DNA of 64,000 nt. It comes from Thermaerobacter sp. FW80 (lineage in GTDB: Bacteria; Bacillota; Sulfobacillia; Thermaerobacterales; Thermaerobacteraceae). Position 1 is the first letter of the stretch. Every line of letters begins with the position of its first letter. Positions 41,709 to 47,383 of this stretch are shown here, piece after piece. A program made the translations under genes and the position numbers. The stretch covers positions 1,401,245-1,465,244 of the forward strand of contig NZ_CP037895.1 of the NCBI RefSeq assembly GCF_004634385.1, written 5' to 3'. Under the pieces are notes generated by a model. It did not search any database. It was not told the origin of the DNA and worked only from the letters and a program-made list of their open reading frames with translations.

Positions 41709-41821
41709 TCGCGCTGGACCATAATGTTCGGCGAGAATAGTAGATAGGTCGACGTCGTGAGCTGCACCAGCACACACCGCCGGGCATGCGGGCGGCCTAC
41801 CGAAACGAAGAGGGTTGGGAC

Positions 41822-43021
41822 ATGCGCGATCAAGGCGCATTTATCCAGTCTGTAAAGATAAGGAATTACAAGAGTATTGCCTCCTGTGAAGTCAAACTTA
41901 GCCCTATTACGGTCCTGGTAGGCCCCAACGGGTCTGGGAAGAGCAACTTCTTGGATGCGCTACGATTCGTGGCCGACGCCCTACGAACGACACTTGAGCA
42001 TGCCATTCGGGACCGTGGTGGGATCAACGAAGTTCGCAGGAGGTCCCATGGGCATCCGCATAACTTTGACATCGATTTGAGCATTAATCTGGCGGATGGA
42101 GCGAAAGCGAAATACGGGTTTCGCATAGGCTCTACTCGGGCCGCAGGGTATCAGGTACTCAACGAACGGTGTTTGATCTGGACAAAGGATTCGGGTAGCC
42201 ATTATTACGAGGTTCAAAAGGGAACCGTCACCAAGGCTAGCTTTGGAAGCTCTGGGCCGGGTCAAATCGAGAGCGACCGCCTGTTCCTCACCCTTGCATC
42301 GGGGCTTTCAGCATTTCGGAGCCTATACGATTCTTTGTCGCATATGGGCTTTTACAACCTCAACCCGGATGTGATGAAAGATTTGCAGGAACCCGATCCG
42401 GGAGAATTGCTAGCCCGCGACGGACGGAACATCGCGAGCGTCATTAGGCGTTTGCAGGAAAACAACGCTGAAGTTGTGAACCGCATCATGGAGTATCTAC
42501 AAGCTGTGGTTCCGGGAGTACGGTCGGTGGAGGTAGTCGATCTACAGCACAAACAAGCTCTCCGGTTCCGTCAGGCCGTTCGCGGTGCACGTGATCCTTG
42601 GTCCTTTGCAGCGGTCAATGTATCCGATGGCACGATGCGAGCCCTTGGAGTCTTGGTTGCGGCCTTTCAGACGCAGGCGGTTAACAAGTTTCCGGTTCCT
42701 CTTGTGGGAATTGAGGAGCCGGAGACCGCCATTCATCCTGGGGCTGCTGTCAAGTTGATGGATGCTCTTCTTGAGGCTTCGCGCCATACGCAGATTCTGA
42801 TTACTACCCACAGTCCCGAACTCCTAGATCATCCTGAGATCAAAGACGACATGTTGCTGGCCGTTGAGGCCGAGAAGGGGCAAACGTTCATTGCACCGGT
42901 AGATGAAACTACCCGCCGCGCCATTCGTGAGCAGTTATATACCGCAGGTGAGTTGTTACGAATGGGGCAGCTCCAACCTGATTTATTTAACGGTAAAGTG
43001 ATGAATCGGGACAAGGGATGA
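41822..43021 (+). CDS. OLD-like AAA ATPase of a putative two-gene defence system
   Basis: 399 residues, AAA_21/COG4637 type. N-terminal IRNYKSI typical of SMC/RecF/OLD ATPases, Walker A GPNGSGKS at 34-41, signature-like SDGT at 268-271, Walker B LVGIEEPE at 294-301 and switch His in TTHSPELL (328-335). It has no C-terminal nuclease of its own; the partner gene overlaps its stop (ATGA at 43018). ATG 41822 follows GAGGG at 41810-41814; ATG 41786 is less likely. Base composition falls to roughly half GC and codons such as ATT, AAA and TTG become common, unlike every neighbour, so it was acquired recently. Split ATPase plus TOPRIM-like pairs (PARIS AriA/AriB) are anti-phage systems; I infer a similar role. 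Confidence 0.85.
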   Translation: MRDQGAFIQSVKIRNYKSIASCEVKLSPITVLVGPNGSGKSNFLDALRFVADALRTTLEHAIRDRGGINEVRRRSHGHPHNFDIDLSINLADGAKAKYGFRIGSTRAAGYQVLNERCLIWTKDSGSHYYEVQKGTVTKASFGSSGPGQIESDRLFLTLASGLSAFRSLYDSLSHMGFYNLNPDVMKDLQEPDPGELLARDGRNIASVIRRLQENNAEVVNRIMEYLQAVVPGVRSVEVVDLQHKQALRFRQAVRGARDPWSFAAVNVSDGTMRALGVLVAAFQTQAVNKFPVPLVGIEEPETAIHPGAAVKLMDALLEASRHTQILITTHSPELLDHPEIKDDMLLAVEAEKGQTFIAPVDETTRRAIREQLYTAGELLRMGQLQPDLFNGKVMNRDKG

Positions 43022-43056
43022 GTAGCAAATATGATGGTTGCGAAGGAAGGTCTGGT

Positions 43057-43647
43057 ATGCGCCTCGCGAGCATCGTTGAAGGGCATGGTGAAGTCGACGC
43101 GCTGCCGGAATTAGTGCGGCGCATCGCTTATCACTTGGGGATTTTCGAATTGAATATTCTTCGGCCAATTCGAATTCATCGTAATCAATTTTTTGTGGGG
43201 TCGCCAGGGCTACAGCGCGCTGTACGCCTGGCGGCTTCCCGTGTTGGATCGAACGGCGCCATCTTGGTTCTCTTTGACGCGGACGACGACTGTCCGGCGG
43301 AGCTTGGACCTGCGCTCCGAGCAAGCCTTGAGCCTGTCGCCGCTGTGCCGATCGCTGTCGTTATGGCCAACCGTGAGTTTGAAGCCTGGTTCCTAGCCTC
43401 CATCGATTCACTACGTGGCTACCGTGGGTTACCTGAGAACGCGACACCCCCCGCTAACCCCGAAGCTGTACGTGGAGCGAAAGAAGTTCTCCGTAACCTT
43501 TTTGGACCTTCGCGGGATTATCGGGAGAGCGTTGACCAAGTGGCATTGGTGCACCGGATGGATCTATCCCTGGCACGCCAACGTAGTGATTCGTTCGACA
43601 AATTGTGGCGAGAAGTGCGGCGTCTGCTGCTTGGGGAACGTACCTAA
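43057..43647 (+). CDS. DUF4276 TOPRIM-like protein, partner of the ATPase
   Basis: 196 residues. VEGHGEVDAL at 7-16 holds the TOPRIM-type Glu, LFDADDDCP at 72-80 the Asp cluster, and NREFEAWFLAS at 105-115 is the DUF4276 hallmark. These acidic residues are placed as in Mg2+-dependent TOPRIM nucleases. ATG 43057 follows GAAGGAAGG (43042-43050); an upstream ATG at 43018 overlaps the ATPase stop and would add 13 residues. It shares the low-GC composition and codon use of the ATPase, and the two form an operon. It is presumably the effector released or controlled by the ATPase. Nuclease activity is inferred from the fold, not shown. Confidence 0.85.
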   Translation: MRLASIVEGHGEVDALPELVRRIAYHLGIFELNILRPIRIHRNQFFVGSPGLQRAVRLAASRVGSNGAILVLFDADDDCPAELGPALRASLEPVAAVPIAVVMANREFEAWFLASIDSLRGYRGLPENATPPANPEAVRGAKEVLRNLFGPSRDYRESVDQVALVHRMDLSLARQRSDSFDKLWREVRRLLLGERT

Positions 43648-43791: not shown

Positions 43792-45801
43792 CTACAGCCA
43801 CAACGACGCCACGATGGGCGCGATCAACAGGGCGACGATGTTGATGATCTTGATCATCGGGTTGATGGCCGGTCCCGCCGTGTCCTTGTAGGGGTCGCCC
43901 ACCGTGTCGCCCGTCACCGCGGCGGCGTGGGCCTCGGTGCCCTTGCCGCCGTAGTGACCCATCTCGATGTACTTCTTGGCGTTGTCCCACGAGCCGCCGC
44001 CGTTGGTCATCTGGATGGCGATGAACAGGCCGGTGACGATGGAGCCCACGATCAGGCCGCCCAGCGCCTTCGGGCCCAGGGCGAAGCCGACCAGGACGGG
44101 GCCGAGCACCGGGATCAGCCCCGGCAGCACCATCTCGCGCAGGGCCGCCCGGGTGACGATGTCCACGGCGCGGCCATAGTCGGGCTTCGCCTTGCGCTCC
44201 ATGATGCCGGGGATCTCCCGGAACTGGCGGCGCACCTCCTCCACCACGTCGAAGGCGGCCCGCCCGACGGCCTCCATGCTCATGGAGGCGAACAAGAAGG
44301 GCAGCACGCCGCCGATCAAGAGGCCGGCCAGCACGAAGGGATCGCCCAGGTCGAAGGACAGCGCCTCGACGCCGGCCTTGCGGAGCTCTTCCACGTAGGA
44401 GGCGAAGAGGACCAGGGCCGCCAGACCCGCCGAGCCGATGGCGTAGCCCTTGGTCACCGCCTTGGTGGTGTTGCCCACGGCGTCCAGCTGGTCGGTGACC
44501 TCGCGGACGGAGTCCTCCAGGTCCGCCATCTCCGCCAGGCCACCGGCGTTGTCGGTGATGGGCCCGTAGGCGTCCATGGTGACGATGATGCCCGTCAGCG
44601 ACAGCATCGCCATGGCGGCGATGGCCACGCCGTAGAGGCCAGCCAGGTTGTAGGCCAGCAGGATCGCCAAGGCGATGACCAGGGCCGGCACCGCCGTCGA
44701 GCGCATGCCCACGGCCAGGCCCGCGATGATGTTGGTCGCGTGGCCGGTCTGGGAGGCGTGGGCGATGTTCTGCACCGGCCGGAAGTTGGCCGAGGTGTAG
44801 TACTCGGTGATGACGATCATCGCCACGGTGACGCCCAGGCCGATCAGGGCGGCGTAGAACAGGTCCAGGTCCAGGCCGAGCCAGCGGGTGACGGCGAAGA
44901 AGCCGACGGCGCCGACCACACCGCTGGCCAGGGCGCCCTGGTAGAGCGCCCGCATGATCGCCCCCGGCCGTGCGGGCGGGGTGGCCAGGACGCCGACGAT
45001 GGAGCTGACGATGCCCACCGCCCCCAGCAGCAGCGGGAAGTAGAGGTAGCGCGGGTCGCCGGCGAACTCCGGCGTCAGCAGGCCCAGCAGGATGGCCGCC
45101 ACCGCCGTGACGGCGTAGGTCTCGAACAGGTCCGCCGCCATGCCGGCGTCGTCGCCCACGTTGTCGCCCACGTTGTCGGCGATGACGGCGGGGTTGCGCG
45201 GATCGTCCTCCGGGATGCCGGCTTCGACCTTGCCCACCAGGTCGGCGCCGACGTCGGCGGCCTTGGTGTAGATGCCGCCGCCCAGGCGGGCGAACACGGA
45301 GATCAGGCTGGCGCCGAACCCGAAGCCCACCAGGGCCGAGTTGTTCTCCGCCCCGGTCAGCCAGACCAGCGCGGTGACGCCCAGCAGGCCCAGGCCCACG
45401 ACCATCAGCCCGGTCACCGCACCGCCCTGGACGGCGACGCGGAAGGCCGCCGCCAGGCCCGTGCGCGCCGCCATGGCCGTGCGCATGTTGGCGCGCACCG
45501 CCACGTTCATTCCGATGTAGCCGGCGGCCGCCGAGAGCGCGGCGCCCACCACGAACCAGAGCGCGGTGGTCAGGCCCATGCCCGGCGCCACCGCCAGCAC
45601 GATGAACAGCACCAGCGCCACCAGGGCCAGGGTGCGGTACTGCCGGTTCAGGTAGGCCGTGGCGCCCGCCTGGATGTGGCCGCCGATGTCGGCCACCGCC
45701 GGGTGGTCCACCGGCTGGCGGACGATGCGGGTGGCAAAGACGAGTCCGGTGAGCAGCGACAGCAGGCTCCCAACCAGCGGGATCCAGAGGTAGGCGTTCA
45801 T
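43792..45801 (-). CDS. hppA: membrane-bound proton-pumping pyrophosphatase, K+-independent
   Basis: 669 residues with about 16 membrane helices. The catalytic signature is complete: [30 protein letters not shown] and the C-terminal [18 protein letters not shown]. The residue that decides potassium need is Lys in [10 protein letters not shown] (Ala in K+-dependent enzymes) with Thr three residues on, so it should be a K+-independent H+ pump. It hydrolyses PPi and builds proton motive force. Cys in the usual DCAGMAAD is Asp here (DDAGMAAD). The start at 45801 is set by the [12 protein letters not shown]-terminus of the family and GGGGCAAGGGA upstream; the frame stays open further but is low-complexity. 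Confidence 0.94.
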
Positions 45802-45873
45802 GTCCCTTGCCCCGCGGTGAGGCGGGTCCCTCCCTTCGTCATCATCCCGACGAGTGCTGACGATCCGATGAAC

Positions 45874-45879
45874 ATGATA
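45874..45879 (-). promoter_or_regulatory. candidate -10 of hppA
   Basis: On the minus strand TATCAT occurs 73 bases ahead of the start codon, with TGGTCC 17 bases further upstream as a poor -35. It lies in a rare AT-rich patch of the divergent gap between hppA and the glycosylase fusion gene. Confidence 0.45.
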
Positions 45880-46051
45880 AAAGTGTTGGAGGAACGGGAC
45901 CAGCCCTCGCCGCGAAACCCGCTGGGATCCGGGCCGGTGCGGGGAGGGAGCGGCGCGGGACGCGGTGGCCGCAGCAGCCGGTGAGCGGCCGGTGGGCCCG
46001 TCCCGCAGCCCATCGAACGCGCGGCGTCCGGCGCGAACAGGGTGGAGAGCC

Positions 46052-47383
46052 GTGGCGAAGGATGGCGACCGTCGGCCGCTGGCGTCGGACCCGGGCGCAC
46101 CCGATGGCGACGGCCCAGGGGCCGGCAAGGCCGCGGGGGATCCCGCCCAGGAGAAGGAGGCGGCCCGCCGGCTGGTGTACCGGCGGTTGCGGGAGGGCGG
46201 GGCGGCCCGCTTCCCCTTTCCCATCGAGGGGCGCATCCCCAACTTCAAGGGCGCCGAACGGGCCGCGGCCCGGCTACGGGAGCTCGAGCTCTACCGCCGG
46301 GCGCGAGCCCTCAAGGTGAACCCGGACACGCCCCAGCTCCCCGTGCGCGCCATGGCCCTGGCCGATGGCAAGACGCTCTACATGCCGACCCCTCGCCTGC
46401 GCGGCGCCTTCCTTCGCATCCGCCCCGAGGACGTCCCACGCGGCGAGGAGCGGCGGGCGGCCCAGCTCAGCAAGGCGGCGGCCTACGGCCGGTTCGTCCC
46501 CCTCGAGGAACTGGCCCCGGAGGCGGCGCCCATCGACCTGGTGGTGGTCGGCGCCGTGGCGGTGACCCGCGACGGTGCCCGGGCGGGCAAGGGGGAGGGC
46601 TACGCCGACTACGAGTACGCCTTGCTGCGCGAGCTGGGCCATCCCGAGCTGCCGGTGGTGACCACCGTCCATCCCCTCCAGCTGGTGGACCGGCTGCCCG
46701 TCGACCCCCACGACCTGTCGGTCGACGTCATCGTCACCCCGGACGCGGTGATCGAGACCCGCACGCCGTATCCCAAGCCCCGCGGCATCCGGTGGGACGC
46801 GGTGACGGAGGACGACCTGGAGGCCATGCCGGTGCTGCGGGAGCTGCGCGCCCTGCGCTGGGAGCGGATGACGGTGCCCGACGTCCTGGCCCCCGGCCTG
46901 GAGGTCGTGTTCGTCGGCCTCAATCCCGGCCGCGCCAGCGCCACCGCCGGGCACCACTTCGCCGGGCCCAACAACCTCTTCTGGCGGCTCCTCCATGAGG
47001 CGGGGTTCGTGCCCCGGGTGCTGCGGCCCGAGGAGGACCGGCTCCTTCTCCGGTGGGGGGTGGGGGTGACCAACGTGGTGCCGCGGGCGACCCGGGGCGA
47101 GGCGGATCTGGGCTGGGACGAACTGGCCGCGGGCGGCGCCGCCCTGCGGGCGAAGATGGCCCGCTACCGGCCGCGGCTGGTGGTCCTCCTGGGCAAGCAG
47201 GTCTACCGGGTCTACGCCGGGTTGGCCCGCACGGCGCGGGTGGACTGGGGGCTGCAGCCCCGGGAGTCGGTGGCGGGGGTGCGGGAGTTCGTCGCGCCCA
47301 ACCCGTCCAGCCGCAGCACGGTGCCCTACGCGGAGCGGCTGCGGCTCTTCGCGGCGGCCCGGGCGTGGCTGCGGGGGAACTAG
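46052..47383 (+). CDS. fusion of 5-formyl-THF cyclo-ligase-like domain and Mug-type DNA glycosylase
   Basis: 443 residues. Residues about 35-275 are COG0212-like: [18 protein letters not shown], and [14 protein letters not shown] (about 177-190), the nucleotide-binding signature of 5-formyltetrahydrofolate cyclo-ligase homologues. Residues about 285-440 are a G/U mismatch-specific uracil-DNA glycosylase: [20 protein letters not shown] with the catalytic Asn in [16 protein letters not shown], and the DNA-wedge loop APNPSSRS. The glycosylase removes U or ethenocytosine opposite G. GTG 46052 has GGAGAG just upstream. The junction lies near 46900. Why a folate-type domain would be joined to a repair enzyme is unclear. 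The 12-mer word occurs in the first domain (46488). Confidence 0.82.

Follow-up and report, generated by a model that had tools for sequence, protein, structure and literature searches.

A conserved fusion of a 5-formyl-THF cyclo-ligase-like domain with a Mug-type DNA glycosylase in Thermaerobacter and related bacteria

Introduction

Pribat and co-workers reportedly proposed, in 2011 (as cited in PMC4120688), a thiamin role for proteins of the plant At1g76730 type, which are COG0212 paralogues of 5-formyl-THF cyclo-ligase (5-FCL; MTHFS, YgfA and YqgN). At1g76730 itself has been described as "not a 5-FCL enzyme", showing no detectable 5-FCL activity (PMC3223725), and the paralogue has been tentatively linked to thiamin salvage in plants and bacteria (PMC3223725, PMC4120688). 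A second group of described proteins comprises E. coli Mug and human TDG, the DNA glycosylases of uracil-DNA glycosylase (UDG) family 2. In E. coli Mug, changing Lys68 to Asn greatly raises activity and confers activity on A:U pairs (PMC10776899). A search of the literature found no published description of a protein joining a 5-FCL family domain to a mismatch-specific DNA glycosylase. The fusion of this kind described below, between PF01812 and Mug domains, is apparently new to the literature searched. It was identified in a 64,000-nucleotide stretch of the Thermaerobacter sp. FW80 genome (hereafter, the window).

Results

A single frame encoding two domains

The gene consists of one uninterrupted open reading frame of 443 codons plus a stop, with zero internal stops. 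A ribosome-binding-like sequence (GGTGGAG) lies just 5′ of the GTG start at 46052, and the stop codon occupies positions 47381-47383. Pfam places the 5-FTHF cyclo-ligase family (PF01812) at residues 43-230 (E 2.9e-27; 96 bits against a cut-off of 27) and UDG (PF03167) at residues 277-441 (E 2.6e-22; 79.9 bits against a cut-off of 24.3). Both matches exceed their cut-offs by a wide margin, so that neither half can be regarded as a chance match. These data confirm the proposal, made in an earlier note from the letters of the window alone, that a single uninterrupted protein carries both domains. A sequence search of the PDB retrieved E. coli Mug with an E value of 1e-29, and 5-FCLs weakly (E 2e-5 or worse). 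The AlphaFold model has a mean pLDDT of 91.9 and a pTM of 0.76; residues 1-24 form the only very-low-confidence stretch (pLDDT below 50). The features of the gene are listed in Table 1.

Table 1. Features of the fusion gene (positions in the window)
Feature	Position	Strand	Remarks
Whole fusion gene	46052..47383	+	GTG start; full-length orthologous ORFs in relatives
Variable N-terminal tail, residues 1-30	46052..46141	+	Mostly predicted disordered; unconserved even within the genus
N-terminal domain, residues 31-250: predicted 5-FCL fold, COG0212 5-FCL-like paralogue	46142..46801	+	PF01812; fold matches 2jcb, 3hy6 and 1ydm; fails TIGR02727
RIPNFKGAE motif, residues 61-69	46232..46258	+	Kept in fused and most stand-alone paralogues; missing from canonical 5-FCLs
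KVNPD, residues 88-92	46313..46327	+	Aligns at the EVDT Glu position of canonical 5-FCLs
Gly-rich loop, residues 179-188	46586..46615	+	GxGGGYYDR in canonical 5-FCLs; second Tyr and Arg substituted here
Junction, residues 251-274	46802..46873	+	Mainly predicted helix, without a long flexible linker; equal length in 4 relatives compared
C-terminal domain, residues 275-443: Mug/TDG (UDG family 2) DNA glycosylase	46874..47380	+	Profiles and 1mug structure match
GLNPG motif with Asn291 (E. coli Mug Asn18, TDG Asn140)	46916..46930	+	Asn in 16/16 fused
Asn341, at the E. coli Mug Lys68 / TDG Asn191 position	47072..47074	+	Asn in 16/16 fused
NPSSRS, residues 417-422 (E. coli Mug 140-NPSGLS DNA-insertion motif)	47300..47317	+	NPS (Asn417-Pro-Ser) in 16/16 fused

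The C-terminal half is a Mug domain

The best NCBIfam matches of the C-terminal half are Mug models. The protein scores 125.9 bits with PRK10201, the equivalog model for E. coli-type Mug, and thus narrowly misses its cut-off of 144; this rules out a strict E. coli equivalog, not membership of UDG family 2. The domain combines the PF03167 profile with the G[I/L]NPG and NPS motifs of family 2, and its fold is closest to Mug/TDG. Residues 274-442 of the model superimpose on E. coli Mug (1mug) with a VIA Z score of 28.9 and an rmsd of 1.2 Å over 165 residues; Z scores are 23-27 with TDG and about 17 or less with family 4 or UdgX. The earlier note's identification of this half as Mug is thus upheld by profiles, catalytic motifs and structure alike.

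The catalytic Asn is Asn18 in E. coli Mug and Asn140 in TDG, and Asn291 aligns with both; NPSSRS is the counterpart of NPSGLS, the DNA-insertion motif starting at E. coli Mug residue 140. Asn291 and NPS are invariant across the fused set. The protein shares with E. coli Mug and human TDG the fold, the NPG motif with its catalytic Asn, the NPS motif and a TDG-type GHH loop. It differs from both in carrying an additional N-terminal COG0212-type domain, and from E. coli Mug in having Asn341 in place of Lys68, as does TDG (Asn191), and in scoring somewhat under the PRK10201 cut-off. Given the position of Asn341 and the reported effect of the Lys68 to Asn change, the fused Mug is predicted to be an active, possibly broader, glycosylase; homology makes activity most likely.

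Two further proteins of the UDG superfamily are encoded in the genome (G000 C1:1139838 and C1:1496403; loci L033 and L034), making the fused Mug one of three uracil-type glycosylases. One of the two belongs to family 4 (188.8 bits against a cut-off of 125.3). The other, with a GLAPAAHGANRTGR motif, we presume to be probably a family 5 member.

The N-terminal half resembles the 5-FCL-like paralogue

In the model, the N-terminal domain has the 5-FCL fold, presumably of NagB/RpiA type. Residues 29-236 match B. anthracis 5-FCL (2jcb_B) with a Z score of 17.0, and residues 26-230 match human MTHFS (3hy6) with a Z score of 16.1. The possibility, raised in the earlier note, that this domain is a DNA-binding fold unrelated to folate is thus at odds with the model. 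Beyond the overall fold, the likeness to 5-FCL (MTHFS, YgfA, YqgN) extends to the C-terminal part of the sequence profile.

The domain nevertheless fails the 5-FCL equivalog model, TIGR02727, whose cut-off is 84.9 bits: it scores 39.6 bits, and N-domains as a group score 33-41 bits. By comparison, the genome's own canonical 5-FCL, encoded at C1:1914358, scores 121 bits. Canonical 5-FCLs, including the latter, conserve an EVDT-type strand motif and a GxGGGYYDR loop. In all fused N-domains these elements are replaced by NPD(T/A)P and GKGEGYxDxE, and a RIPNF motif is added; these domains thus lack the Glu of EVDT as well as the second Tyr of the GYYDR segment and its Arg. RIPNF, NPD and GKGxGYxDxE are constant between fused and most stand-alone forms. 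The motifs that the earlier note had quoted for COG0212 and for Mug, NPSS among the latter, are indeed present, except that RIPNF and GKGEGYxDxE are marks of a 5-FCL-like paralogue and not of 5-FCL itself, the EVDT and GGGYYDR hallmarks of that enzyme being absent. In a tree of N-domains, three canonical 5-FCLs separate from all 22 other sequences (support 100/98), and 13 of the 15 fusion genomes examined contain a second PF01812 locus. Judging from these comparisons, the N-domain is most likely not an ordinary 5-formyl-THF cyclo-ligase and resembles the orphan "5-FCL-like" paralogue within COG0212. With the plant At1g76730 type, as known from its published description, it shares PF01812 membership without the 5-FCL signature, and in most of the genomes concerned it coexists with a further PF01812 protein; its stand-alone relatives occur in the same phylum and in one cyanobacterium. 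It differs from the At1g76730 type in bearing a C-terminal DNA glycosylase and in that no thiamin gene cluster was seen at the fused loci inspected.

Distribution and origin of the fusion

The PF01812-Mug fusion is found, as full-length or contig-truncated copies, in 16 genomes from two classes of the phylum. Within the class of the window's genome, its carriers are three additional congeneric species, a sister genus (with a copy truncated where its contig ends), a further family of the same order, and family f46; the second class contributes eight genomes. All complete copies form one open frame with a common short junction. A scan of the contig collection returned one distant cyanobacterial relative and no others. 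Within the genus, the N-domain has dN/dS values of 0.11-0.14 and the Mug domain values of 0.21-0.23, denoting purifying selection on both halves. The presence of the fusion in 15 other genomes excludes the sequencing error that the earlier note had envisaged, and likewise an assembly error. More generally, the notion that sequencing, assembly or annotation artificially merged two genes is hardly credible: no supporting point was found, and a conserved junction and purifying selection in 16 separate genomes speak against it.

In the Mug-domain tree, all 16 fused sequences fall in one clade (support 98/93; 97% of bootstrap trees), suggesting that the two domains were joined only once. The N-domain tree places the fused sequences on one side of a branch with weaker support (67/88) and so lends modest backing to a single origin. 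One fusion, followed either by vertical descent with losses or by transfer between classes, would explain the distribution. Elsewhere in the phylum, many genomes encode Mug as a separate protein, and a few (G047, G147, G057, G028, G412 and G335) encode the N-domain by itself, 35-63% identical to that of the window protein; in the phylum sample, stand-alone Mug is common and the stand-alone N-domain paralogue rarer.

Several candidate variants were discarded. No precursor state, with a stand-alone paralogue beside a stand-alone Mug, was found: the two genes lie on different contigs in G057 and G042, and about 2 Mb apart on one contig in G028. The segment ahead of Mug in G110 proved to be free of any N-domain motif and hence not a remnant of the domain. 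Apparent internal stops in the copies from G493 and G589-G592 arose because the aligner had run past the stop codon that ends each gene.

Gene neighbourhood and thiamin genes

In the window, the fusion gene is divergent from an H+-pyrophosphatase gene and lies upstream of genes for a MarR regulator and an MFS transporter. No conserved operon was seen among the fusion loci. Their neighbours include genes for a class II aldolase, a citrate/DASS-type transporter, an Lrp/AsnC regulator, a subtilase, H+-pyrophosphatase, MarR/MFS and, by eye, an XdhC-like protein. As these neighbours differ between families, gene context gives no clue to function. Around the fused genes inspected, where the profile scan covered part of the neighbouring ORFs, none of the neighbours was recognised as a thiamin gene. 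Of the 21 genomes that encode the N-domain, the window's own among them, 20 lack ThiC and 17 show a TMP-TENI (ThiE-like) match over cut-off. This pattern suggests that the thiamin pyrimidine is salvaged or made by another route. One genome (G493, 95% complete) has the fusion and no TMP-TENI match, indicating that thiamin is not an obligatory partner.

In three class-2 genomes, a tRNA-Val(CAC) gene of the same orientation stands immediately upstream of the fusion gene (L100, 8924-9000, minus strand; L106, 3339-3415, minus strand; L107, 1293-1369, plus strand); such places are typical sites of insertion. Elsewhere in the window, an overlapping gene pair at 41786-43647 (plus strand) encodes an AAA ATPase (PADLOC HEC-01A, 526 bits) and a DUF4276 protein (HEC-01B, 239.5 bits); it represents a candidate two-gene anti-phage defence system, like PARIS-type pairs of AAA and DUF4276 proteins. 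The pair occupies the same place in two relatives from the genus (L088 and L089) and was not detected in a third (L090). A 685-aa frame at 43927-45984 (plus strand), antisense to the H+-pyrophosphatase gene, is most probably spurious, an open frame of the kind that GC-rich DNA produces.

Discussion

The data are best accommodated by a real and conserved protein, arisen once, in which a family 2 glycosylase is joined to an orphan 5-FCL-like domain with a role involving a small ligand; we regard this interpretation as likely. The Mug half would act on double-stranded DNA, flipping out uracil or a related damaged pyrimidine and cleaving the N-glycosidic bond; Asn291 would position the water used for cleavage, and Asn341 would contribute to base binding. 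The N-domain, tethered to the glycosylase by the short helical junction, has kept the Gly-rich GKGEGY loop and lost the 5-FCL signature residues. This combination makes a nucleotide- or pyrimidine-like small ligand more likely than 5-formyl-THF, and such a compound is what the domain most likely binds. Both the nature of the ligand and the purpose of the domain are speculative. One conjecture, which we rate as quite unlikely, is that the COG0212 5-FCL-like family acts on some damaged or modified pyrimidine, free or as its nucleotide, the tether in these bacteria allowing one protein to deal with base damage both in DNA and in the small-molecule pool.

The earlier note had proposed a link between folate/thymidylate metabolism and the removal of uracil from DNA. 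If the N-domain were a working 5-FCL, or a sensor of 5-formyl-THF, coupling folate/thymidylate status to uracil excision, the protein would tie one-carbon status to uracil repair. The shared Pfam family and fold and the retention of a Gly-rich loop agree with such a role. The evidence goes against it: the failure with TIGR02727, the replacement of the EVDT Glu and YDR residues in every fused member, the separate canonical 5-FCL of the genome and the second PF01812 locus in most fusion genomes, together with the lack of detectable 5-FCL activity reported for At1g76730 (PMC3223725). Since the N-domain does not appear to be the folate enzyme, we consider a folate link very unlikely.

A part in thiamin pyrimidine salvage, the fusion either bringing a pyrimidine-handling domain to the glycosylase or being incidental, would fit the ties of the family to thiamin in plants and bacteria (PMC4120688, PMC3223725), and the general lack of ThiC alongside TMP-TENI fits salvage over de novo synthesis. 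This idea is rather unlikely in view of the fused-gene neighbourhoods examined, in which no thiamin gene was recognised, of the genome that has the fusion without a TMP-TENI match, and of the lack of an obvious biochemical reason for a tether to Mug. Comparably unlikely is a non-catalytic N-domain that acts as a scaffold, giving the glycosylase stability or aiding its hold on DNA, a chance fusion having subsequently been retained. The short helical junction, the unconserved neighbourhood and the relative abundance of stand-alone Mug over the stand-alone paralogue in the phylum sample are in line with it, as is the description of human MTHFSD, which has a domain of the same family, as RNA-binding (PMC5773659). 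Yet the N-domain is under tighter constraint than Mug, and the persistence of RIPNF, NPD and GKGxGYxDxE in fused and most stand-alone forms suggests that a ligand site has been kept.

The fusion shows that a UDG family 2 enzyme can acquire an extra domain. The COG0212 5-FCL paralogue is an orphan in plants and bacteria, its connection with thiamin being only tentative. A conserved fusion of single origin gives this family a concrete and testable partner, a glycosylase whose activity is easily assayed, and thereby a clue to the role of the unexplained 5-FCL-like proteins.
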